Origin: Bugula neritina
Taxonomy: Eukaryota; Bryozoa; Gymnolaemata; Cheilostomatida; Bugulidae
Length of the DNA stretch: 64,000 bases
Direction: 5' to 3'
Assembly: GCA_964035545.1 (NCBI GenBank)
Contig: OZ037773.1
Span: forward strand, 2,328,251 to 2,392,250
Shown: one piece after another, positions 5,536 to 64,000 of the stretch
Position numbering within the stretch: position 1 is the first letter of the stretch
Layout: each line of letters opens with the position of its first letter
Translations under genes and position numbers: made by a program
Notes under the pieces: generated by a model
Database searches by the model: none
Seen by the model: the letters and a program-made list of their open reading frames with translations, nothing else
Told to the model about the DNA's origin: nothing

Positions 5536-5910
5536 ATGCCTCTTAAAGTTAGCTACAAAGGTGCCAAGAAAGCAGCAAAGGCTAAAGCAGCTCCAATGTC
5601 TGGAGACAAGAGAAAACAAATAAAAGGCAATGGAAGTTACAGCACATACATTACTTACAACGTGTTGAAGCAAGTCCACCAAGACACTGGTGTATCTAGC
5701 AGCGCCATGAGGATCATGGAGAGCTTTGTCAATGATATGTTCCATATAGTAGTGAATGAAGCATCTAGATTGGCAGACTACAACAGGAAGTCCATGATAA
5801 CAAGCCGAGAGGTAGAGACTGTCCTGAAGCTGATTCTGCCAGGAGAGTTAGCTAAGCATGCCTAGGCTGAGGGTACAAAGGCTGTAACTAAATACGCCAG
5901 CTCCAAGTAA
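5536..5910 (+). pseudogene. histone H2B, divergent, copy 1 with premature stop
   Basis: This is a core nucleosomal histone H2B of 124 codons compared with its sisters. The reading frame is [19 protein letters not shown]..., then the histone fold [23 protein letters not shown]-like region and the [22 protein letters not shown] segment. Codon 110, GAG (Glu) in the copies at 19.8, 43.1 and 51.9 kb, is TAG here (5863-5865). That removes the last 15 residues, including the AVTKY segment around the ubiquitinated lysine of known H2Bs. Promoter and 3' stem-loop are intact, so transcription is still expected. It may be a recent pseudogene or make a tail-less H2B; the start is the same as in the intact copies. 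Confidence 0.85.
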
Positions 5911-11491: not shown

Positions 11492-12427
11492 ATGGAGAAT
11501 AGCAGCGTTCTGTGCGGTGACATCACTGACTTTTGTGTAGACTCTACTAGATCCGCAGCGTTTTCATCTTTCAACATTTTCAGTGTTATATTCAACATCA
11601 TCAATTTGGTTTTCCTGAAGAAGTTAGACAAATCCAAAAGAAACGCATCATTTTGGATAATAGTGAACATCGGTATCTGTGACGTTGTGACTTGCTCCTC
11701 CTTTTCTCTGGCAGTCAGCTGTGAATTGAACAGACAAATCATAACTTTACCAGCAGTTGGTGCTCGAACCTTTCAAGTTATAGTGATTACATTTGGCTTT
11801 GTCTCAATTGTTGCTAGAAATTTTGTATTGGAGACTGGCGGCTATGAGCGATACGTCTCCATCTGTCAGCCTTATCAAGTGAGCTATAACAAAGTGGTTA
11901 GCAATATGAAACTCTTCTTGGCCATTGTTTGGATATTTACCTTTGCTCTTATGACTATCACTATTGCCACTGATACCACCAAGTATTGCTTTGGTGAGTT
12001 CGGAGCTATCCCAAATGACTCCAATCCACAGACTAGTGTTGCGTTTGTTGGATCCATTACAACAGCTTTTGTCATCTCTGTCATCTGCTTATCTAAGACT
12101 TGGAGAGAGTTGAAGAGAATGCAGTCCAGAAGTACAGTTCCAGGAAAAGATGATCTGATAGTGAAGAGATCTGCCCAGTATATTATAATAATCTTCATCA
12201 CTCTTTACTTGTCCTACATTCCAACAGCCATATCCTTAGTTTGTAATAACCTTAATGATAGTTTAAAGGGCTTAGGATATTTGGCCAGATGGATTTCTTT
12301 CTATTACATTACAATTTTTAGCATTCTTAATGTTGTAATATATTTCATCATGACCCCAGGCTACCGTATTCATGTGATGAATTTACTCATGTTGAAGACT
12401 CCAACAGTTGGTCAAATTAAATCTTAG
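11492..12427 (+). CDS. class A-like GPCR, copy 1 (311 aa, intronless)
   Basis: This is a putative seven-helix plasma-membrane receptor that would signal through G proteins; ligand unknown. Hydrophobic segments lie at about residues 23-43, 53-76, 92-117, 138-160, 182-202, 226-251 and 265-288. Diagnostic features are E-R-Y at 119-121 in the DRY position, W147 in helix 4, SYIP in helix 6 at the CWxP position, and NVVIY (280-284) at NPxxY. N3 is a possible N-glycosylation site. The usual cysteine 25 residues before the DRY arginine is absent (Gln95), so it is divergent. The single exon and short tail resemble invertebrate chemoreceptor-type expansions. The start ATG follows an in-frame-stop region and is conserved in all copies. 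It is nearly identical to the copy at 58099. Confidence 0.8.
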   Translation: MENSSVLCGDITDFCVDSTRSAAFSSFNIFSVIFNIINLVFLKKLDKSKRNASFWIIVNIGICDVVTCSSFSLAVSCELNRQIITLPAVGARTFQVIVITFGFVSIVARNFVLETGGYERYVSICQPYQVSYNKVVSNMKLFLAIVWIFTFALMTITIATDTTKYCFGEFGAIPNDSNPQTSVAFVGSITTAFVISVICLSKTWRELKRMQSRSTVPGKDDLIVKRSAQYIIIIFITLYLSYIPTAISLVCNNLNDSLKGLGYLARWISFYYITIFSILNVVIYFIMTPGYRIHVMNLLMLKTPTVGQIKS

Positions 12428-12608: not shown

Positions 12609-14291
12609 TGTTAAATGTATTCTGTATTCCTATTAAATTGTGAACAAAATTTACAAAGGAAAGAAGTGTAGGAGTTGGCGGAACAGGAAGTTAGTGGTCT
12701 GAGTCCCGTCACATGATATGTTTGAAAGAGTATCCACTCATAGTTTCTCCTGCATGTGCAGCGTTTAAAAAATTTCTCAGCAGGCTTTAAATTAAAACCT
12801 TTTCATTAGATGTTCTCACGATAAACACTATAAACTTATATAATTATGAGCTTTTCGAGGCTTCGAATACACTTGCATATATGTTAATATAATATGGAAG
12901 CAATCGGTATATTATCAGCTCTGTGTAATGCCTAGATAGCTTTCCAACCAGAATGCACTGTTTTCAAAACAAAAAATGAATATGCAATTGATAACTCTAT
13001 AGTCTATACTCCGTACCAATAATTTCCGCGTGTGTAGCCCCTCTACGCCTCATAAAGAGGATAACTTGTAAAAGGTTGATAATAATAATATGTTCTTTAC
13101 GCTACCAGTCTATGCAACGCAGACACTCTTGAAATATTCAACAGCTACTAAAATTTAGGTTGCAGGCAAATTGGCGATCAACAATATTGAGGGGGGGGGA
13201 ATAAAGCTATTTGATTAGCAAGTCTCATGAGTATTTTGTAAGTCTCAAATAATTATTTATATTTCATCTTTATATATACTGGAACTTATTTATTTAACAT
13301 GATAGCTCATTTTTTCACTTTATTATTTTATTTAATAAAAGTGAAGTTTATTTTGTATCAAACATAATATTATATAACAGCTTCCAAGTGGGTTCAAGTC
13401 ATAATGATCACTTTGTTTTCACCTAGACCATGTAGTTAAGCAAATGGTTAGTTTGAAACACCCTGCTGGGTGAGTATGGAGATAACAGAGCTTAATCTAG
13501 CCAAGAAATGTAAAGCATAGCTATAGCATTAAATACAGTTGTTACGCACTAGCTTGGTACATCATACTTCACTATAATTATACTAATAGTAAGCAGCAGC
13601 TTTGGAACTCAAATTCTTAGGGTTGAATAGTAGATGTGGTGAGATCCATAACTAAAGCTGCACAGAAAAGCTAAATGTATTAGGAGTTCTACAGTTGATA
13701 TAATATTTGTGCGCATACTACATAATTTAATTTTTGTTAGGAGAAGGCTGATTCTAGCTTTCAACTGGTCCACTACTCCAGTCTAGCCAAGGTTCACCAA
13801 GGTTTAAGCTTTGAATTTTCTAGAGTCTAGACAAGCATTATCTGTGGATTATTGGTGTAAGTTATGAATCCTATCATAAATCTACTATACAGCTCACTGC
13901 AGCTCTAATAACTCTACTTCTGTAATGGTGTGACTGCAGGTAAAATCTGAACAGTAGCTATGAGTTGCTAAGGTGCCACCCATTAATGTTTATTATAGAC
14001 AACAGCAACTAAACAAATTGCACCAGGAGTCTGCTTCAACATAACTATTTTGATTTGTGAAGTCTGGGATGGACAATTCCTGGAATGCAGGTTAAGCCTG
14101 ATAGAAGATTATACTTTTTACTCAGTTGTTTATGTATACACTATACTTTACATAGTTTATATAAATTTAAATAGAACATGTTGATGAGTGAGTGCATTGC
14201 AAACTTTATAGAGCCCAATATATATCTAGAAGGTGTATCAATAATTTATTATTCAAAGGTTTGAACAACTCTACAAGTAAACATTTAAAGT
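12609..14291. other. GPCR downstream block
   Basis: Non-coding. It includes a G9 run (13191-13199) and the CTACACGC... locus that carries AC repeats in inverted copies. The block recurs inverted at 17.9-19.1, 38.2-39.6 and 47.9-49.6 kb. The last 300 bp are the inverted H2B 3' flank. Confidence 0.6.
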
Positions 14292-14307
14292 GGCCCTGAA
14301 AAGGGCC
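14292..14307 (-). terminator. histone mRNA 3' stem-loop of chimera 1
   Basis: On the minus strand it reads GGCCCTTTTCAGGGCC, a perfect stem, 44 nt after the chimera stop codon. The flanks AAC and ACTTT are like those of H2B. Confidence 0.95.
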
Positions 14308-14350
14308 GTTGGGGTTAGTAGCGGAGCTTGGAGAGATTACTAACAGGTTG

Positions 14351-15801
14351 TCATAGACTAGAATGCGAGATTTCTTCGTCCACATGTCGACTGAGAAGTA
14401 GTTGCAGCAAAGTATTTTGTCTTTGCTTTACCTGTATAAAAAAATATTATACGTTAACAAATGGAACTGTTGTTAACATGGGTTTTTTAATAAATTGTAG
14501 TAGCTACAGATTAGAAATAAGTTTGCTTATTTTGCAATCAAGAAACAAAATTATCTTTCATAATTGTTGCCTACCTCATGAGTTGCTCGGCTTTGTAACT
14601 GTGAAGCCAGTTGGGTTAATATTTTGTCACTAAGGGTAAACCTTTCGCCACACTCCAAAGCTGCAGTCTTCAATGCTCTTAGAAGTATCTTGTCCTCAGC
14701 TCTAAAAGTATACCATCCCCATATTGCATGATTTATATTCTTCAACTTCAACAATGCATTTAAATGTAAAGTGCCACTGAAAGTACTGTGATAAAACTGT
14801 GGGTTTGAATGTAGCTAGTTGCCCTGCATGCTATAGTTATGAAGAACAGGTCGAAAAATTGTGTATAAATTATGGTAGCTTTATTGTGTAGAATAATATA
14901 ATAGGTCTGCATCCAGCGAGCTCCAGTAGTAGACTGAACTACACTGGAACTCGCTGGCTTTTATATACAAGCAGAACAAAGACATTCCTTTGTTGCAGAA
15001 ATGCCAACGATTCAAATTTCAACAGAGTAAAATATCTTAGTTCTCTTCCAAAGCTCTTTTCTAGTGGCCTATAGGTTCATTTTAAGTTACAAACGAAGAT
15101 TAGGTGAGTCAGATTTCACTTTTAGAAAGTAAGCTTCTGCACCAATATGCAATTTCAACGATTTTCAGTTTGACTATTAAAAGGGGTACTTTTTTCAGCA
15201 AAGGTATAAACAAAACTTCAGTACAGGGCGTCAACTTTATAACATTAAGTTTATACAATAGAGGAATTACCTTGTCCACGGTGCTATGACTGGTTGACCT
15301 GGGAGAGGTAAAGCTGGTGTGAGCTCCTTGGGGTCTGTACGGAGAGTAATGACCTCTGCAAATAACATCAGAAAGTAAAGATTATGCACAATTTACAAGT
15401 TGAAAAGAGAAATTTAGCAGCATAGGCTGAAGAAGTGCAATCTGAAACTTGCATTTACAGGAGTACAGCCGGTCACACATTACACTTCATCGGCCAATGT
15501 TATAGAGTTGAGTTTGAGCCAACATGATACACTCTACTTAAACAAACATTGGCTTGGGTATATTACAATACAGAAAAAAAATTTCTACACTCAAAACTCT
15601 ATAAAACTTACCATTACTGAGAGATAAATGACAGCCTTTAGTGTCATCATCACCTTCCTCATTCAGCTGACTCGGTGGGGGATCCAAGTGACGGTAATAG
15701 GCAGGTCTCAGGCCCCTGCGAGGTCCAGTACGTCCAGACATTCGAGCTGCTTTAGCTTTTCCTGCTTTCTTGGCACCTTTGTAGCTAACTTTAAGAGGCA
15801 T
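14351..15801 (-). CDS. H2B-promoter chimera with Myb/SANT-like domain, copy 1
   Basis: Four exons on the minus strand give a 160-aa protein. Exon 1 (15612-15801) starts [20 protein letters not shown], as in the H2Bs here, keeps MSG, then changes to GPRRGLRPAYYRHLDPPP and an acidic NEEGDDD stretch. Exon 2 is 15271-15355 (VITLRTDPKEL...). Exon 3 is 14575-14701 and exon 4 is 14351-14431. All junctions are GT-AG and the phases (1, 2, 0) join cleanly. Residues from about 89 (APWTRAEDKILLRALKTA) to 145 look like one Myb/SANT repeat: W-T-R-x-E-D, then helices ending in a THEVKQR-type third helix. By family resemblance this is closest to the C-terminal domain of GON4L/YARP proteins; that assignment is inference. 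The histone fold is wholly absent. Promoter and stem-loop are of H2B type. The protein would be nuclear and possibly protein-binding. Confidence 0.7.
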
Positions 15802-15898
15802 GCTATTCAGTTAGTGATAATGTTGAATTCTTGTTCTTGATGTAATGACTGCAACAATAGTTTGATGCTAAATGATGTTCAGATCTTAGGGCACTCTG

Positions 15899-16042
15899 TA
15901 TTTATATGTATCAACAGTAGTTAGAAATTATCCAATCAGATGGCGGTAGCTTAAACTGCCGCCTTAGTGTGCCCTAATGTTTACATTGAAAACAATTATT
16001 TGTCATAGACCAATGAAACTCGTAGAGCAATCTAATTTGCAT
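15899..16042 (-). promoter_or_regulatory. H2B-type promoter of chimera 1
   Basis: On the minus strand: octamer ATGCAAAT at 16035-16042, CCAAT motifs between, and TATAAATA at 15899-15906, about 100 bp before the ATG at 15801. Confidence 0.85.
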
Positions 16043-19783: not shown

Positions 19784-20158
19784 ATGCCTCTTAAAGTTAG
19801 CTCCAAAGGTGCCAAGAAAGCAGCAAAGGCTAAAGGAGCTCCAATGTCTGGAGACAAGAGAGAACAAAGAAAAGGCAAAGGAAGTCCCAGCACATACATT
19901 ACTTACAATGTGTTGAAGCAAGTCCACCAAAACACTGGTGTATCTAGCAGCGCCATGAGGATCATGGAGAGCTTTGTCAATGATATGTTCCATATAGTAG
20001 TGAATGAAGCATCTAGATTGGCAGACTACAACAGGAAGTCCATGATAACAAGCCGAGAGGTAGAGACTGTCCTGAAGCTGATTCTGCCAGGAGAGTTGGC
20101 TAAGCATGCCGAGGCTGAGGGTACAAAGGCTGTAACTAAATACGCCAGCTCCAAGTAA
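19784..20158 (+). CDS. histone H2B, divergent, copy 2 (124 aa)
   Basis: A nucleosome core histone that would pair with H2A in chromatin. It has a lysine/alanine-rich tail (residues 1-20) and an unusual [17 protein letters not shown] linker where ordinary H2B has a run of Lys/Arg. The histone fold spans residues 37-101 ([20 protein letters not shown]..., [20 protein letters not shown]), followed by the C-terminal helix with AVTKYASSK. The lysine of AVTKY (the H2B ubiquitination site in known species) is kept. Substitutions in normally near-invariant positions include FHIVVNEAS for FERIAGEAS and ADYNRKSMI for AHYNKKSTI. It is intronless and has its own octamer/TATA promoter and stem-loop, so replication-dependent expression is expected. 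Confidence 0.92.
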
Positions 20159-28003: not shown

Positions 28004-28939
28004 ATGGAGAATAGCAGCGTTCTGTGCGGTGACATCACTGACTTTTGTGTAGACTCTACTAGATCCGCAGTGTTTTCAACTTTCAACATTTTCAGTGTTA
28101 TATTCAACATCATCAATTTGGTTTTCCTGAAGAAGTTAGACAAATCCAAAAGAAACGCATCATTTTGGATAATAGTGAACATCGGTATCTGTGACGTCGT
28201 GACTTGCTCCTCCTTTTTTCTGGCAGTCAGCTGTGAATTGAACAGACAAATCATAACTTTACCAGCCGTTGGTGATCGAACCTTTCAAGTTATAGTGATT
28301 ACATTTGGCTTTGTCTCAATTGTTGCTAGAAATTTTGTAGTGGCGACTGGCAGCTATGAGCGATACGTCTCCACCTGTCAGCCTTATCAAGTGAGCTATA
28401 ACAAAGTGGTTAGCAATATGAAACTCTTCTTGGCCATTGTTTGGATATTTACTTTTGCCCTTATTACTATCACTATTGCCACTGATACCACTAAGTATTG
28501 CTTTGGTGAGTTCGGAGCTATCCCAAATGACTCCAATCCACAGACTAGTGTTGCGTTTGTTGGATCCATTACAACAGCTTTTGTCATCTCTGTCATCTGC
28601 TTATCTAAGGCTTGGAGAGAGTTGAAGAGAATGCAGTCTAGAAGTACAGTTCCAGGACAAGATGATCTGATAGTGAAGAGATCTGCCCGGTATATTATAA
28701 CAATCTTCATCACTCTTTACTTGTCCTACATTCCAACAGCCATATCCTTAGTTTGTAATAACCTTAATGATATTTTAAAAGGCTTAGGATATTTGGCCAG
28801 ATGGATTTCTTTCTATTACATTACAATTTTTAGAATTTTTAATGTAATAATATATTTCATCATGACCCCAGGCTACCGTATTCATGTGATGAATTTACTC
28901 ATGTTGAAGACTCCAACAGTCGGTCAAATTGAATCTTAG
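28004..28939 (+). CDS. class A-like GPCR, copy 3 (311 aa, intronless)
   Basis: Full-length paralogue of the receptor at 11492, with the same layout: seven hydrophobic segments, ERY at 119-121, W147, SYIP in helix 6, and NVIIY at the NPxxY position. It has more amino-acid differences than copies 1 and 5 have from each other, for example VGDRT, NFVVATGSYERYVSTCQ and IFRIFNV. The leader carries one extra TTGACC repeat. A poly(A) signal lies at 29117-29122. Function and ligand are unknown. It sits in tandem 1.7 kb after the truncated copy. Confidence 0.8.
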   Translation: MENSSVLCGDITDFCVDSTRSAVFSTFNIFSVIFNIINLVFLKKLDKSKRNASFWIIVNIGICDVVTCSSFFLAVSCELNRQIITLPAVGDRTFQVIVITFGFVSIVARNFVVATGSYERYVSTCQPYQVSYNKVVSNMKLFLAIVWIFTFALITITIATDTTKYCFGEFGAIPNDSNPQTSVAFVGSITTAFVISVICLSKAWRELKRMQSRSTVPGQDDLIVKRSARYIITIFITLYLSYIPTAISLVCNNLNDILKGLGYLARWISFYYITIFRIFNVIIYFIMTPGYRIHVMNLLMLKTPTVGQIES

Positions 28940-33046: not shown

Positions 33047-33062
33047 GGCCCTGAAAAGGCCC
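33047..33062 (-). terminator. histone stem-loop of chimera 2, one mismatch
   Basis: On the minus strand it reads GGGCCTTTTCAGGGCC. The third base pair is G-G instead of C-G. The loop and flanks are unchanged. Confidence 0.85.
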
Positions 33063-33105
33063 GTTGGGGTTAGTAGTGGAGCTTGGAGAGATTACTAACA
33101 GGTTT

Positions 33106-34542
33106 TCATAGACTAGAATGCGAGATTTCTTCGTCCACATATCGACTGAGAAGTAGTTGCAGCAAAATATTTTGTCTTTGCTTTACCTGTATAAAAAAAT
33201 ATTATACGTTAACAAATGGAACTGTTGTTAACATGGGTTTTTTAATTAATTGTAGTAGCTACAGGTTAGAAATAAGTTTGCTTATTTTGCAATCACAAAA
33301 CAAAATTATCTTTCATAATTGTTGCCTACCTCATGAGTTGCTCGACTTTGTAACTGTGAAGCCAGTTGGGTTAATATTTTGTCACTAAGGGTAAACCTTT
33401 TGCCACACTCCATAGCTGCAGTCTTCAATGCCCTTAGAAGTATCTTGTCCTCAGCTCTAAAAGTATACCATCCCCATATTGCATGATTTATATTCTTCAA
33501 CTTCAACAATGCATTTAAATGTAAAGTGCCACTGAAAGTACTTTGATAAAACTGTGGGTTTGAATGTAGCTAGTTGCTTTGCATGCTATAGTTATGAAGA
33601 ACAGGTCGAGAAAATTAGTATAAATTAGGGTAGCTTTATTGTGTAGAATGATATAATAGGTCTGCATCCAGCGAGCTCCAGTAGTAGACTGAACTACGCT
33701 GGAACTCACTGGCTTTTATATACAAGCAGAACAAAGACATTCCTTTGTTGCAGAAATGCCAACGTTTCAAATTTCAACAGAGTAAAATATCTTAGCTCTC
33801 TTCCAAAGCTCTTTTCTAGTAGCCTATAGGTTCATTTTTAGTTACAAAGATTAGGCGAGTCAGATTTCACTTTTAGAAAGTAAGCTTCTGCACCAATATG
33901 CAATTTCAACGATTTTCAGTTTGACTATTAAAAGGGGTACTTTTTTCAGCAAAGGTATAAACAAAACTTTAGTACAGGGCGTCAACTTTATAACATTAGG
34001 TTTATACAATAGAGGAATTACCTTGTCCACGGTGCTATGACTGGTTGACTTGGGAGAGGTAAAGCTGGTGGGAGCTCCTTGGGGTCTGTACGGAGAGTAA
34101 TGACCTCTGTAAATAACGTCAGAAAGTAAAGATTATGCACAGTTTACAAGTTGAAAAGAGAAGTTTAGCAGCATAGGCTGAAGAAGTGCAATCTGAAACG
34201 TGCATTTACAGGAGTACAGCCAGTCACACATTACACTTCATCGGCCAATGTTATAGAGTTGAGTTTGAGCCAACATGATACAATCTACTTAAACAAACAT
34301 TGGCTTGGGTATATTACAATACAGAAAACAATTTTCTACACTCAAAACTTACCAATACTGAGAGATGAATGACAGTCTTTAGTGTCATCATCACCTTCCT
34401 CATTCAGCAGACTCGGAGGGGGATCCAAGTGACGGTAATAGGCAGGTCTCAGACCCTTGCGAGGTCCAGCACGTCCAGACATTCGAGCTGCTTTAGCCTT
34501 TCCTGTTTTCTTGGCGCCTTTGTAGCTAACTTTAAGAGGCAT
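33106..34542 (-). CDS. H2B-promoter chimera with Myb/SANT-like domain, copy 2
   Basis: Complete paralogue of the gene at 14351-15801. Exons are 34353-34542, 34022-34106, 33330-33456 and 33106-33186, of identical lengths (190, 85, 127, 81 nt), all with GT-AG sites, giving 160 aa. The N-terminus [20 protein letters not shown] is H2B-like. The Myb/SANT-like core PWTRAEDKILLRALKTAAME is unchanged apart from Leu to Met and Glu to Lys (GKR). Differences are mostly conservative (GLRP kept; TGPRRG to AGPRKG). No stop or frameshift occurs. It has an H2B-type promoter and a slightly imperfect stem-loop. Confidence 0.7.
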
Positions 34543-34642
34543 GCTGTTCAGTTAGCGATATTAATGTTGAATGCTTGCTCCCGATGTAATGACTGCAACA
34601 GTAGTTTGATGCTAAATGATGTTCAGATCTTAGAGCACTCTG

Positions 34643-34786
34643 TATTTATATGTATAAACAGTAGTTAGAAATGATCCAATCAGATAGCGGTTGCTTAAAC
34701 TGCCGCCTTAGCGTGCCCTAATGTTTACATTGAAAACAATTATTTGTCATAGACCAATGAAACTCGTAGAACAATCTAATTTGCAT
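34643..34786 (-). promoter_or_regulatory. H2B-type promoter of chimera 2
   Basis: On the minus strand: octamer ATGCAAAT at 34779-34786 and TATAAATA at 34643-34650, with CCAAT motifs between. Confidence 0.85.
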
Positions 34787-36721
34787 ATCTTATACAATAT
34801 AGCCACGCCAAACTGTTGGGGAACTAGGTAGGCAACTTCGAGTTGAATTCCAATAAGTTACTCTAAACTTTGAAATAATATTTTACTTTTCAACAATTAT
34901 TGATATGATGTAGATTTTGACTTAAGTTTGTATATAACATCATTATAGTGCATAGCTTATTTATTTTTATTTAACCAGAACTTTAAACTTTTTCAAAAGT
35001 TTGGTCACTTTTATAAGGCAAAACGTGAATTATTTAATATCTCTTTGAAAAAAAACATTACTCACTCCAAATAATCAGTATTGTGCTCACCAATCTACAC
35101 ATAAGTTCACATAGTGGCACTTGTGCATTTACTCATATACAGTGTGTAAATTGCAGATAACTTCATTACTGACCAGTATGACTATAAAATTATCTAAATA
35201 ACCGTGGGAATAGCTGAACTCCTATCATTCAATACAAGCAAGGTATAGATAGGTTCTTCTTGATACACAGCCTGGATATTTTTCTTATCAAGAAATCACA
35301 GGTGTGAGAATGGCTAAGGAAATTAATATTTTTAGCCTACAAATAATAAACTATACACAGATTAAATAAATAATTAAAATAGGCTATAGCAAACTATTTT
35401 CTGACAAAAAAAAGGAATCTTTTGCAAAAAGCTCTAATTATACAGGTCAAAGGAGCTAGGTGCAAAACGAATATGTTCATGAAAGCATTAATTATACATG
35501 TGTTCAGTATTTGTGCTATAAAATTTTTATATTTTATATCAACTAGTTGTTGGGAGCAAAATTAACAACTTGGAGTAATTTGAGGAATACAATTTCATTG
35601 GAGATGGTTAGGTAATTTCAATTTGATGTAGGTTATACTGTCTTTTTGATTATCCCTCTTTAAATTTTGGCTCCAACTCTCAAATTTAATATTTCAGTAA
35701 TTAAAAATAAATAGCAATTTATATACACACAGAGTTTAATAAATTGTATTTCAAACATTCCCTTATACAGCTCAGTGTGAAGTTGATGTCACTGGTTCCT
35801 ACTTGATGAAGCATTTTCATTCTGAGATTCCATTGAGGAATTTATAACATGTTATATGCTTTAGACAGGTGTGCCATAAACATGGAGAAACTATGACTCT
35901 GTGGTATATATATAAAATGAGGCATTTAAAAGGTGATTCTCCCACTTTTATTCATATTATACATATGCACATAAAGTAATGTTATGTGTTATGTCTTTGA
36001 GGGCCACATAAAAGTTAAGCTGGTGGCCCTTCTTAAATGTAGTTAAACATTTGTATATTGTTGAGGTTTTAATAAACTTGAGAAAAATTGCCCTACATAA
36101 GCAAATACTATATTAGAATGCCATGCAATCGAAATTTTAAAAGAATTACAACCCAAAGTAGAAATCATTTTTAGGTTGAATGTTTTACCTTGCTTACTCC
36201 TAAAAGTAAGCTTTTTATGTAGTTAAATTAGATTTTTATTTATAGTATGCTATCTAGCTAAAAGATTCTTGCTGTTAGTTTTGCTTTAATTGAAGCGCAA
36301 ATAATATACATATAGTATGGGAAAGTTTATAATGATATACCTTTTTGTAGCAGACTATGTAACCTATAATATAGTGTAGATATTTAAACTTATACTGACG
36401 CATTTGAATTAGTATAGGAGCCAATATTACATAATATATATATATATATGTTATACTTTTTGTAATGAATAAGCTGGTCCGCTATACTGGTGTAGAACTT
36501 TCTAGAGAGTCTAGACAAGTATTATCTACAGATTATTGGTGTAATTTAGGAATAATCCTATCATGTCTACTATTCAACTCACAGTTCTTATAACTGTGTT
36601 TTTATAATGGTGTAACCAGGCAAAATTTGAACATATTTGCAATCAGCTCCAAAGCTGCCTCACACTGTCCATGTTTATAGACAACAGCACCTGAACAAGT
36701 TGCATCAGGTGTCTGCTTGGA
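34787..36721. other. inverted H2B upstream block and mixed flank
   Basis: 34.8-35.88 kb is the reverse complement of about 4.23-5.29 kb. From 35.9 kb it changes to unrelated AT-rich sequence, including a GGGCCAC...GTGGCCC hairpin (36001-36029). The last ~60 bp before 36719 resemble inverted H2B 3' flank. No gene was seen. Confidence 0.6.
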
Positions 36722-37039
36722 GCAGCCCGTACTGGCGATAAGAAAAAGAAAAGGAAGAGAAAAGAAAGCTATGGAATCTATATTTATAGAGTATTGAAAC
36801 AGGTTCACCCTGACACTGGTGTCTCCGGCAAGGCAATGAGTGTAATGAATAGTTTCATCAATGATGTGTTTGAAAGAATTGCTGGAGAGGCATCGAGACT
36901 TGCTCACTATAATAAAAAATCCACCATTACCAGCCGGGAAGTTCAGACTGCAGTGAGGTTAATCCTTCCGGGAGAATTATTGAAACACGCTGTATCTGAA
37001 GGTACAAAGGCTGTGACTAAATACACCAGCTCCAAGTAA
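36722..37039 (+). pseudogene. canonical-type histone H2B, 5' truncated
   Basis: An open frame encodes 105 residues very close to textbook H2B: a basic [20 protein letters not shown] stretch, [19 protein letters not shown], the [20 protein letters not shown] region and AVTKYTSSK. The first ~18 residues, ATG, TATA box and octamer are gone. Upstream sequence is an inverted piece of H2B 3' flank with an in-frame TGA and no ATG. An internal ATG at 36794 would give only 81 residues. The 3' stem-loop is intact. This is the only near-canonical H2B here, and it appears non-functional. Confidence 0.8.
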
Positions 37040-43104: not shown

Positions 43105-43479
43105 ATGCCTCTTAAAGTTAGCTCCAAAGGTGCCAAGAAAACAGAAAAGGCTAAAGCAGCTCCAATGCCTGGAGACAAGAGAAAACAAAGAAGAGGCAAA
43201 GGAAGTTACAGCGCATACATTACTTACAACGTGTTGAAGCAAGTCCACCCAGACACTGGTGTATCTAGCAGCGCCATGAGGATCATGGAGAGCTTTGTCA
43301 ATGATATGTTCCATATAGTAGTGAATGAAGCATCTAGATTGGCAGACTACAACAGGAAGTCCAAGATAACAAGCCGAGAGGTAGAGACTGTCCTGAAGCT
43401 GATTCTGCCAGGAGAGTTAGCTAAGCATGCCGAGGCTGAGGGTACAAAGGCTGTAACTAAATACGCCAGCTCCAAGTAA
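43105..43479 (+). CDS. histone H2B, divergent, copy 3 (124 aa)
   Basis: Intact H2B of the divergent type. The linker is [19 protein letters not shown], more basic and closer to ordinary H2B than copies 2 and 4, and loop 1 keeps HPDTGVSS. The fold continues with [20 protein letters not shown], then [14 protein letters not shown] (Lys where canonical H2B has Thr) and AVTKYASSK. It is intronless; the ATG context, promoter and stem-loop match the other cassettes. It is expected to be a replication-dependent core histone. Confidence 0.92.
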
Positions 43480-47092: not shown

Positions 47093-47473
47093 ATGACTCC
47101 TAAAGTTAGCTCCAAAGGTGCCAAGAAAGCAGGAGAGGCTAAAGCAGCTTCTAAGTCTGGAGACAAGAAAAAGAAGAGTAAAAGAAAAGAAAGTTAAAGC
47201 ACATATATTTACAAGGTACTGAAGCAAGTGCACCCAGACACTGGAGTATCTAGCAAAGCCATGAACATTATGAACAGCTTTGTCAATGATATGTGTTCAA
47301 AAAAATTGCGATCCACCATAACAAGGCAAGAAATACAGACTGCTGTGAAGCTCATTTTGCTGTAAGATTTGGCTAAACACCCTGTCACAGCCTAGTTCTT
47401 TCTGGAGAGAGAGCTCACTTTGCTGTAAGTGAAAGTGGCCAAAGGTGTCAGAAAATACACCAGTGAAAAATAG
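47093..47473 (+). pseudogene. histone H2B pseudogene, promoterless
   Basis: It starts [19 protein letters not shown], then a canonical-like basic stretch DKKKKSKRKES followed by TAA. After the stop come [30 protein letters not shown], a deletion of helix 2, [17 protein letters not shown], another stop, and the decayed C-terminus AKGVRKYTSEK ending in TAG at 47471-47473. At least two stops and one deletion make it non-functional. The basic stretch shows the ancestor was closer to canonical H2B. Confidence 0.9.
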
Positions 47474-51897: not shown

Positions 51898-52272
51898 ATG
51901 CCTCTTAAAGTTAGCTCCAAAGGTGCCAAGAAAGCAGCAAAGGCTAAAGGAGCTCCAATGTCTGGAGACAAGAGAGAACAAAGAAAAGGCAAAGGAAGTC
52001 CCAGCACATACATTACTTACAATGTGTTGAAGCAAGTCCACCAAGACACTGGTGTATCTAGCAGCGCCATGAGGATCATGGAGAGCTTTATCAATGATAT
52101 GTTCCATATAGTAGTGAATGAAGCAGCTAGATTGGCAGACTACAACAGGAAGTCCACCATAACAAGCCGAGAGGTAGAGACTGTCCTGAAGCTGATTCTG
52201 CCAGGAGAGTTAGCTAAGCATGCCGAGACTGAAGGCACAAAGGCTGTGACTAAATACGCCAGCTCCAAGTAA
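51898..52272 (+). CDS. histone H2B, divergent, copy 4 (124 aa)
   Basis: Intact, and almost identical to copy 2 (19784). It has the same reduced-charge linker [17 protein letters not shown]. Differences include QDTG for QNTG, SFINDM for SFVNDM, EAARLAD for [15 protein letters not shown] (the canonical Thr) for KSMITSRE, and AETEG for AEAEG. The histone fold and AVTKYASSK tail are complete. The near-identity of gene and flanks with the 19-kb cassette points to recent duplication or gene conversion. Confidence 0.92.
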
Positions 52273-58098: not shown

Positions 58099-59034
58099 AT
58101 GGAGAATAGCAGCGTTCTGTGCGGTGACATCACTGACTTTTGTGTAGACTCTACTAAATCCGCAGCGTTTTCATCTTTCAACATTTTCAGTGTTATATTC
58201 AACATTATCAATTTGGTTTTCCTGAAGAAGTTAGACAAATCCAAAAGAAACGCATCATTTTGGATAATAGTGAACATCGGTATCTGTGACGTTGTGACTT
58301 GCTCCTCCTTTTCTCTGGCAGTCAGCTGCAATTTGAACAGACAAATCATAACTTTACCAGCAGTTGGTGCTCGAACCTTTCAAGTTATAGTGATTACATT
58401 TGGCTTTGTCTCAATTGTTGCTAGAAATTTTGTATTGGAGACTGGCAGCTATGAGCGATACGTCTCCATCTGTCAGCCTTATCAAGTGAGCTATAACAAA
58501 GTGGTTAGCAATATGAAACTCTTCTTGGCCATTGTTTGGATATTTACCTTTGCTCTTATGACTATCACTATTGCCACTGATACCACCAAGTATTGCTTTG
58601 GTGAGTTCGGAGCTATCCCAAATGACTCCAATCCACAGACTAGTGTTGCGTTTGTTGGATCCATTACAACAGCTTTTGTCATCTCTGTCATCTGCTTATC
58701 TAAGACTTGGAGAGAGTTGAAGAGAATGCAGTCCAGAAGTACAGTTCCAGGAAAAGATGATCTGATAGTGAAGAGATCTGCCCAGTATATTATAATAATC
58801 TTCATCACTCTTTACTTGTCCTACATTCCAACAGCCATATCCTTAGTTTGTAATAACCTTAATGATATTTTAAAGGGCTTAGGATATTTGGCCAGATGGA
58901 TTTCTTTCTATTACATTACAATTTTTAGCATTCTTAATGTTGTAATATATTTCATCATGACCCCAGGCTACCGTATTCATGTGATGAATTTACTCATGTT
59001 GAAGACTCCAACAGTTGGTCAAATTAAATCTTAG
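58099..59034 (+). CDS. class A-like GPCR, copy 5 (311 aa, intronless)
   Basis: Full-length and nearly identical to copy 1 (11492). The few residue changes include Lys for Arg at 20, CNLNRQ for CELNRQ, GSYERY for GGYERY and NDILKG for NDSLKG. The seven hydrophobic segments, ERY 119-121, W147, SYIP and NVVIY are all present. A poly(A) signal lies at 59210-59215. The flanks are also nearly identical to unit 1 over several kilobases, indicating a recent duplication. Confidence 0.8.
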   Translation: MENSSVLCGDITDFCVDSTKSAAFSSFNIFSVIFNIINLVFLKKLDKSKRNASFWIIVNIGICDVVTCSSFSLAVSCNLNRQIITLPAVGARTFQVIVITFGFVSIVARNFVLETGSYERYVSICQPYQVSYNKVVSNMKLFLAIVWIFTFALMTITIATDTTKYCFGEFGAIPNDSNPQTSVAFVGSITTAFVISVICLSKTWRELKRMQSRSTVPGKDDLIVKRSAQYIIIIFITLYLSYIPTAISLVCNNLNDILKGLGYLARWISFYYITIFSILNVVIYFIMTPGYRIHVMNLLMLKTPTVGQIKS

Positions 59035-62708: not shown

Positions 62709-62724
62709 GGCCCTGAAAAGGCCC
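62709..62724 (-). terminator. histone stem-loop of chimera 3, one mismatch
   Basis: On the minus strand it reads GGGCCTTTTCAGGGCC, with the same G-G third pair as chimera 2. Confidence 0.85.
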
Positions 62725-62767
62725 GTTGGGGTTAGTAGTGGAGCTTGGAGAGATTACTAACAGGTTG

Positions 62768-64000
62768 TCATAGACTAGAATGCGAGATTTCTTCGTCCAC
62801 ATATCGACTGAGAAGTAGTTGCAGCAAAGTATTTTGTCTTTGCTTTACCTGTATAAAAAAATATTATACGTTAACAAATGGAACTGTTGTTAACGTGGGT
62901 TTTTTAATTAATTGTAGTAGCTACAGATTAGAAATAAGTTTGCTTATTTTGCAATCACAAAACAAAACTATCTTTCATAATTGTTGCCTACCTCATGAGT
63001 TGCTCGACTTTGTAACTGTGAAGCCAGTTGGGTTAATTTTGTGTCACTCAGGGTAAAACTTTCGCCAGACTCCATAGCTGCAGTCTTCAATGCCCTTAGA
63101 AGTATTTTGTCCTCAGCTCTAAAAGCATACCATCCCCATATTGCATGATTTATATTCTTCAACTTCAACAATGCATTTAAATGTAAAGTGCCACTGTAAG
63201 TACTGTGATAAAACTGTGGGTTTGAATGTAGCTAGTTGGTTTGCATGCTATAGTTATGAAGAACAGGTCGAGAAATTGAGTATAAATTACGGTAGCTTTA
63301 TTGTGTAGAATAATATAATAGGTCTGCATCCAGCGAGCTCCAGTAGTAGACTGAACTACACTGGAACTCACTGGCTTTTATATACAAGCAGAACAAAAAC
63401 ATTCCTTTGTTGCAGAAATGCCGAAATGTTTCAAATTTCAACAGAGTAAAATATCTTAGTTCTCTTCCAAAGCTCTTTTCTAGTAGCCTATAGGTTCATT
63501 TTAAGTTAGAAAGTAAGCTTCTGCACCAATATGCAATTTCAACGATTTTCAGCTTGACTATTAAAAGGGGTACTTTTTTCAGCAAAGGTATAAACAAAAC
63601 TTCAGTACAGGGCGTCAACTTTATAACATTAAGTTTATACAATAAAGGAATTACCTTGACCACGGTGCTATGACTGGTTGACTTTGGAGAGGTAAAGGTG
63701 GTGTGAGCTCCTTGGGGTCTGTACGGAGAGTAATGACCTCTGCAAATAACGTCAGAAAGTAAAGATTATGCACAGTTTACAAGTTGAAAAGAGAAGTTTA
63801 GCAGCATAGGCTGAAGAAGTGCAATCTGAAACGTGCATTTACAGGAGTACAGCCAGTCACACATTACACTTCATCGGCCAATGTTATAGAGTTGAGTTTG
63901 AGCCAACATGATACAATCTACTTGAACAAACATTGGCTTGGGTATATTACAATACAGAAAACAATTTTCTACACTCAAAACTTACCATTATTGAGAGATG
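62768..64000 (-). CDS. H2B-promoter chimera with Myb/SANT-like domain, copy 3 (5' end outside window)
   Basis: Exon 4 is 62768-62848, exon 3 is 62992-63118, exon 2 is 63655-63739, and the 3' end of exon 1 is 63986-64000, cut by the window. Exons 2-4 have the same lengths and splice sites as copies 1 and 2 and are open. The domain reads PWSRAEDKILLRALKTAAME, then SGESFTLSDTKLTQLASQLQ. It therefore carries a few more changes (T to S, CGER to SGES, KIL to TKL), but the W-S/T-R-x-E-D core is kept. The H2B-like start must lie just right of the window if the copy is complete. Confidence 0.65.

Follow-up and report, generated by a model that had tools for sequence, protein, structure and literature searches.

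Putative H2B-GON4L chimeric genes, with a captured SANT/Myb domain, in a histone H2B array of the bryozoan Bugula neritina

In both human and fly, the GON4L-type SANT domain is a binding partner of NPAT/Mxc, the protein that serves as scaffold of the histone locus body. New chimeric genes formed by duplication at the DNA level are a recognised class. In the GON4L/YARP proteins (Mute in Drosophila and Udu in zebrafish), PAH repeats are followed by a C-terminal SANT domain (PMC7449961, PMC13001340). The SANT domain of YARP and FLASH is reported to bind the C-terminus of NPAT, with the YARP contacts localized by NMR on helices I and III (PMC7432317). Fly Mute is described as a repressor of the core histone genes outside S phase that is also needed for the full expression of H1, H2a and H2b, and the same source states that the importance of the Mute-Mxc contact for histone control is uninvestigated (PMC13001340). 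On the side of the histone genes, some human H2B genes are reported to give spliced polyadenylated transcripts, and introns in a histone gene to prevent proper processing at the stem-loop (PMC3661734, citing Pandey 1990). Although chimeric genes are known as a kind, the pairing of H2B with GON4L is, as far as the literature searched extends, undescribed: full-text searches on histone fusion or chimeric genes, on bryozoan histones and on GON4L gave, among the papers listed, no report of a fusion between a histone and a domain of the histone locus body.

The window analysed here is a stretch of 64,000 nucleotides of chromosome 9 (C9) of the Bugula neritina assembly tzBugNeri2.1. The interval 14292..16042, read on the minus strand, starts as an H2B gene, with a promoter (15901..16042) composed of an octamer ATGCAAAT (16042-16035), two inverted CCAAT boxes (16014-16010 and 15936-15932) and a TATAAA element (15906-15901). 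Exon 1 (15612..15801) contains the H2B tail (approximately 15801-15730), a few nucleotides of filler and, from about 15726, a sequence derived from GON4L. It is followed by intron 1 (15356..15611, GTAAGT..TTGCAG), exon 2 (15271..15355), intron 2 (14702..15270, GTAATT..TTTTAG), exon 3 (14575..14701), which corresponds to the region of the SANT/Myb helices I and II, intron 3 (14432..14574, GTAGGC..ATACAG) and exon 4 (14351..14431), which contains the SANT helix III, the C-terminal tail and the stop codon of the parent gene. The H2B 3' UTR (14292..14339) starts with TAATCTCTCC and includes the stem-loop GGCCCTTTTCAGGGCC (14307-14292; 30.7 bits with Rfam RF00032, gathering score 34), and an AATAAA is localized 41 nt past this stem-loop (14245..14250). 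The limits of the four exons (15801-15612, 15355-15271, 14701-14575 and 14431-14351), their clean GT-AG junctions, the H2B promoter elements and the return to the H2B 3' UTR at AG|TAATCTCTCC agree with the preliminary description of this locus. The predicted product, encoded by 483 nt including the stop, is a protein of 160 amino acids composed of an H2B N-terminal tail and a SANT/Myb domain. Positions 1-310 of the interval (1-302 in one comparison) are 89-96% identical to six H2B genes of the array, and the promoter elements, the leader, the tail codons (about 24), the 3' UTR and the stem-loop are those of replication-dependent H2B genes; in contrast to these genes, the histone fold is absent, the coding sequence is interrupted by three predicted GT-AG introns, and four of the five copies described below have a damaged stem-loop. 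Intron 2 also contains a dispersed repeat of 216 nt (14787-15002), with copies, 79-94% identical, on the chromosomes C1 to C7.

The remaining part of the gene has a counterpart on chromosome 4. The segment C4:17595101-17596551 covers the chimera from the 26th codon of exon 1 to exon 4. Frame and exon borders agree between the two, the sole deviation being a single in-frame codon by which they differ in exon 4. In the five copies described below, intron 1 displays 73-75% and intron 3 84-86% identity with the parent introns, and in intron 2 the homology comprises the two ends and one inner block (comparison made with copy L003). As introns 1 and 3 are still 73-86% similar to those of the parent, the capture occurred at the DNA level, and an origin as a retrocopy was rejected since the parent introns are retained. 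It is almost certain, judging from this alignment, that the body of an H2B gene (codons from approximately 24 onwards, stop included) has been replaced by the last four exons, the introns and the stop of a GON4L/YARP-like gene.

Open stretches on the same strand precede the parent segment and contain, 1.6 kb upstream of it, a PAH repeat (C4:17593380-17593520; 25 bits, above the cut-off), and a second candidate upstream of the segment reaches 20.6 bits for a cut-off of 21.3. The search of the whole genome with the PAH profile gave six matches, namely the parent locus on C4 and five at one locus of C3, the latter probably being SIN3-like in view of its number of PAH repeats. The order, strand and distance of the PAH and SANT exons on C4 suggest that they form one gene. 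The capture of a GON4L/YARP-like segment inside an H2B gene, proposed in the preliminary description together with a search for a parental gene, is thus borne out by parent exons that still carry their introns, with a PAH repeat upstream. The chimera resembles GON4L/YARP by its predicted C-terminal SANT/Myb domain (PF21227 as best Pfam match, below the cut-off), of which this gene is the parent. It differs by the H2B tail, by its location inside a histone array and by the absence of the remainder of GON4L and of the PAH repeats, for which the profile search found no match in the 160 amino acids.

At the 3' joint, the parent reads CTCGTTAG|ACTTG, the H2B genes CCAAG|TAATC and the window copy (L001) CTGTTAG|TAATC, the dinucleotide AG being common to both parents. 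At the 5' joint, H2B reads TCTGGA in four of the six genes and CCTGGA in one, the parent reads CCGGACCTCGC, and the whole fits a joint at GGA; the copies of the window carry here the filler TCTGGACGTACTGGACCTCGC or a close variant. In view of the short shared bases at the joints, we read the fusion as a template switch or an end joining. Two identified parents, short shared joint bases and amplification in an array are also what characterizes new genes of chimeric origin that arose by duplication at the DNA level, and the present case is a clear example of a new gene made from a histone gene at the DNA level in which both parents and both joints are visible.

A nucleotide search of the whole genome with the 1751-nt interval (40 of 631 candidates scored, at least 48 matches) detected at least five full-length copies of the chimera: L001 and four others at 93-95% identity. 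All are on the minus strand of C9 between 2.298 and 2.444 Mb, spread over 145 kb, and three are wholly or partly included in the window. The second copy, L002, occupies 33047..34786 (exons 34542-34353, 34106-34022, 33456-33330 and 33186-33106; stem-loop 33062-33047), and the third, L004, occupies 62709..64000 (exons 63739-63655, 63118-62992 and 62848-62768; stem-loop 62724-62709), its exon 1 being mostly outside the window. The five copies all have exons of 190, 85, 127 and 81 nt, GT-AG introns, an open frame of 160 codons and the complete promoter set (octamer, two inverted CCAAT and TATAAA), with 241 nt between the octamer and the ATG (244 in L002). Upstream of the octamer, the homology with H2B loci continues for about 600 nt in three of the six loci compared and for a shorter distance in the remaining ones; on the other side, it goes on for about 316 nt past the stem-loop in five of the six. 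With H2B homology on both flanks, the chimera sits within an H2B unit. An artefact of assembly has a practically negligible probability, given five distinct copies over 145 kb in an assembly with approximately 132-fold HiFi coverage (PMC11480708) and the annotation of the same fusion protein in an independent assembly.

This protein, the hypothetical protein EB796_011615 of B. neritina (157 amino acids, named P0001 hereafter), was the single match among 58 candidates scored from a database of 5.8 billion proteins. It displays the same fusion of an H2B tail with a SANT domain and was matched over its full length. The prefix EB796 is presumably that of the published US draft assembly. This draft was obtained from two Virginia colonies of type S, and its genes were predicted by AUGUSTUS with transcriptome hints (PMC7576161). 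The identity of P0001 with the five copies is 81-85%, and with the parent 79% over 134 positions; in 16 columns P0001 has the residue common to the five copies and not that of the parent, and in five columns it sides with the parent and with none of the copies. Its sequence is absent from the assembly of the window, where the closest match reaches 84% (exon 1), and it differs from the window copies by a whole codon at the junction, the frame staying open. At this place, its residues S-G-P-R-K would fit a direct GGA joint, P0001 being known here as a protein only. We read P0001 as a probable diverged copy or allele of the chimera; an origin from a different named species was rejected, the protein being annotated as B. 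neritina from the US assembly. An alignment-based protein search (4630 candidates) recovered P0001 only, and a query made of the GON4L C-terminal part (a rough exon concatenation of 719 amino acids) gave no hit among 3303 candidates at E<=0.001, a search whose length limits may hide full-length relatives. The recurrence of the 1751-nt structure with equal exon lengths, added to the fusion found in an independent annotation, rules out chance.

Spliced histone transcripts are unusual, and the H2B-like start and exons 2-4 could belong to separate transcripts, or the introns could stay unspliced, in which case only a shortened peptide or a noncoding transcript would result. We regard this as very unlikely: the splice dinucleotides, the exon lengths and the frame are kept in all five copies, the splice sites are those of the parent, and P0001, predicted with AUGUSTUS and transcriptome hints and seen as protein only, spans the equivalents of all four exons. 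The 160-residue product announced by the preliminary description has an open frame in the five copies and an equivalent in P0001, and on balance the chimera probably gives a spliced protein.

The domain is assigned chiefly by its descent from the gene on C4, to which PF21227 as top Pfam hit and weak profile scores are added. The five copies, P0001 and the parent all have PF21227 as their best Pfam match, below the cut-off of 27 bits in each case (five copies: 14.5-16.7 bits, E 0.007-0.035; P0001: E 0.018; parent: E 3.3e-5); in the window copy, it covers residues 90-146 of the product, encoded around exon 3. The profile search proposed earlier points to the expected family, with scores that stay under the threshold. 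For comparison, PF21227 reaches 98 bits on a human GON4L stretch, of which the 31 residues checked all agree with PMC7432317, and hhalign of the chimera against this human stretch and a mouse stretch gave E 3.2e-4 with a probability of 38%. Searches of PDB sequences returned one hit for the chimera (E 0.63) and one for the parent domain (E 0.12) and did not retrieve the GON4L or FLASH structures, and modelling with AlphaFold gave low scores (pTM 0.31 and 0.27), with no clean three-helix bundle. With PF21227, a six-frame search of the own genome found no match at the C4 parent or at the chimeras, presumably since exon borders split the domain. Its single match is localized at C1:20830901-20830987 (22.1 bits in the protein scan, cut-off 27), in a short frame that reads ..FQLVNRYASAVSHRYRNLVKY with a stop immediately after. 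This frame looks like SANT helices II-III at an extreme C-terminus, as in the layout of FLASH, and constitutes a possible lead to FLASH. FLASH (CASP8AP2) also ends in a SANT/Myb domain, one that binds NPAT in histone locus bodies (PMC7432317), but it is of large size and binds LSM11 by its N-terminal part, whereas the chimera has 160 amino acids and its parent domain lies beside PAH repeats. From what is published on its relatives, the captured domain is the one by which GON4L and FLASH are connected to NPAT, the organiser of histone gene expression; neither this nor the existence of several copies figured in the preliminary description.

Fourteen YARP positions were compared with the chimera, the helices being aligned by hand and the interface residues G2171, A2172, E2208 and A2209 lying outside this mapping. 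Seven are kept (R2157, D2160, L2164, V2192, R2195, L2199 and L2202) and seven are changed in the five copies (R2161K, I2163L, C2167L, Q2168K, M2200L, F2203L and F2196Q). The NPAT-contact position F2196 is Leu in the parent and Gln in all five copies and in P0001, which also has Ile at 2192 and 2203. A search for NPAT itself with an N-terminal query, run with no positive control, matched nothing in the genome. Divergent H2B genes are used in the germ line of other animals. The H2B genes that best match the chimera form a divergent family, with 63-64% identity to a fly-type H2B, and H2B genes with 87-88% identity to it are found elsewhere on C9 and on C5. The product might act independently of NPAT, as a chromatin or DNA-binding protein whose basic H2B tail and Myb-like fold would contact DNA or nucleosomes, possibly in germ-line cells. 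The divergence of the H2B family is in line with this idea, the change of F2196 to Gln in all chimeras could weaken the known NPAT contact, and DNA binding is modelled as compatible with SANT domains (PMC7432317). We nevertheless hold it to be improbable, since most of the NPAT-facing hydrophobic positions compared remain hydrophobic.

The preliminary description also mentioned a perfect histone stem-loop. This is correct for L001, and for L001 only: the stem-loops of L002, L004 and L005 contain a G-G mismatch (19.2-19.4 bits with RF00032), and that of L003 carries a further change and has no RF00032 match at E<=1. Among the H2B genes of the window, five stem-loops exceed the gathering score (34.1-38.1 bits). 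The AATAAA is present 36-41 nt past the stem-loop in all five copies (36 in L004), and also in the H2B genes of the array that were compared. SLBP is present in the genome, where its profile has two matches above the cut-off, one of them interrupted by a stop; a search for the U7 snRNA gave no match, and its controls were blank too, hence it is uninformative. Because introns are reported to block the processing at the stem-loop and four of the five stem-loops are damaged, an mRNA ending at the stem-loop is the less likely form, and a polyadenylated message, perhaps not strictly restricted to S phase, appears likelier.

The frames of the copies were compared with each other and with the parent. 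Against the parent, counting gave dS 0.33-0.40, dN 0.12-0.14 and omega 0.31-0.42, and a codon model with omega=1 fits worse than a free omega (p=0.033), values to which selection on the parent itself also contributes. When the five copies are compared with each other, omega=1 is not rejected (2dlnL 0.07, p=0.79), the variable sites are distributed as 11, 18 and 14 over the three codon positions, and the exons are as variable as the introns (43/483 vs 57/917, p=0.08). Indels are distributed otherwise: none in 483 coding nt against eight in 917 intron nt (P=0.034), none of the eight being a multiple of three, and 21 events when all the noncoding stretches compared, flanks included, are counted (P=0.004). 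In a star-like simulation of random substitutions, the copies remain stop-free in 9.5% of trials (P=0.095), and the absence of stops alone is a weak sign of constraint.

Decayed relatives also exist in the array. Within 260 kb, plus-strand pieces at 80-91% identity correspond to exon 1-2 (one piece), exon 3 (five) and exon 4 (five), localized at C9:2301305-2321550, 2395638-2408908 and 2445754-2454361, and two additional places similar to exon 3 are found just outside the 260 kb. In the trees of exon 3 and exon 4, which do not include the exon 1-2 piece, the decayed pieces are separated from the five intact copies with a support of 100. Decayed pieces beside intact copies, and apart from them in the trees, indicate that the family turns over. 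The decayed pieces are kilobases apart, with what we think are retroelement-like frames between them.

These data bear on a serious alternative to which we give a little over one third of the weight, namely that the chimeras are neutral passengers: a chimeric duplication would hitch-hike in a fast-turning H2B array, its frames being open since they are young and encoding no useful protein. The lack of excess change at third positions, the omega near 1 among copies, the equal variability of exons and introns, the older fragments, the damaged stem-loops and the simulated frequency of stop-free copies all agree with it. Against it stand the lack of exon indels, the omega below 1 relative to the parent (selection on the latter included) and P0001, a diverged US protein whose frame is likewise open and which differs by an entire codon at the junction. 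The integrity of the frames favours a selection as protein and the substitution pattern among copies does not.

The explanation that we prefer, with two fifths of our confidence and still tentatively, is that the chimeras form a family transcribed from the H2B promoter into a spliced and mainly polyadenylated RNA that encodes a competitor of GON4L able to dock on NPAT. Transcription would start at the H2B promoter, and the spliced RNA would end mainly by polyadenylation at the AATAAA just beyond the stem-loop. The product would be small and nuclear, with a basic tail, and in the histone locus body its SANT/Myb domain would dock on NPAT, at the C-terminal helix of the latter. A protein reduced to SANT would compete there with full-length GON4L, and perhaps with FLASH, for NPAT, and this competition would couple the output of the H2B array to the GON4L-dependent control of histone genes. 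The role of competitor is deduced from a product devoid of the PAH repeats and of the rest of the large GON4L and, taken by itself, is possible while staying below an even chance. Given the two effects of Mute, such a competitor could push histone expression either way. It is more speculative, and rather unlikely, that the histone array has in this manner evolved its own multi-copy feedback competitor or tuner by means of a docking domain captured under a histone promoter, perhaps in connection with a divergent H2B set that might serve the germ line. If it is made, a natural SANT-only protein coming from a histone locus would be a ready tool for the question of the Mute-Mxc contact.

Concerning the rest of the array, divergent H2B genes are found in the window at 5536-5907 (interrupted by an in-frame TAG), 19784-20155, 43105-43476 and 51898-52269, and a less divergent H2B (78%) at C9:2199774. 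Generic H1, H2A, H3 and H4 sequences have no match at E<=1e-6 within 260 kb of the array. Two more H2B relatives are present at 36719-37036 and 47093-47380; one has a more canonical fold with no start and the other contains stop codons. A second chimera carrying the H2B fold, assembled from scattered pieces of H2B 75-124, was considered and rejected, these pieces carrying stops. In L003, positions 483-563 form an inverted repeat matched by several microRNA families below their gathering scores and mostly on both strands, which is probably a palindromic repeat. Finally, intact frames of 311 codons, which resemble a rhodopsin-like receptor as read from their sequence, are intercalated between the histone units at 11492-12424, 28004-28936 and 58099-59031; they are 94-99% identical to the first, and more copies and fragments are distributed along the array.
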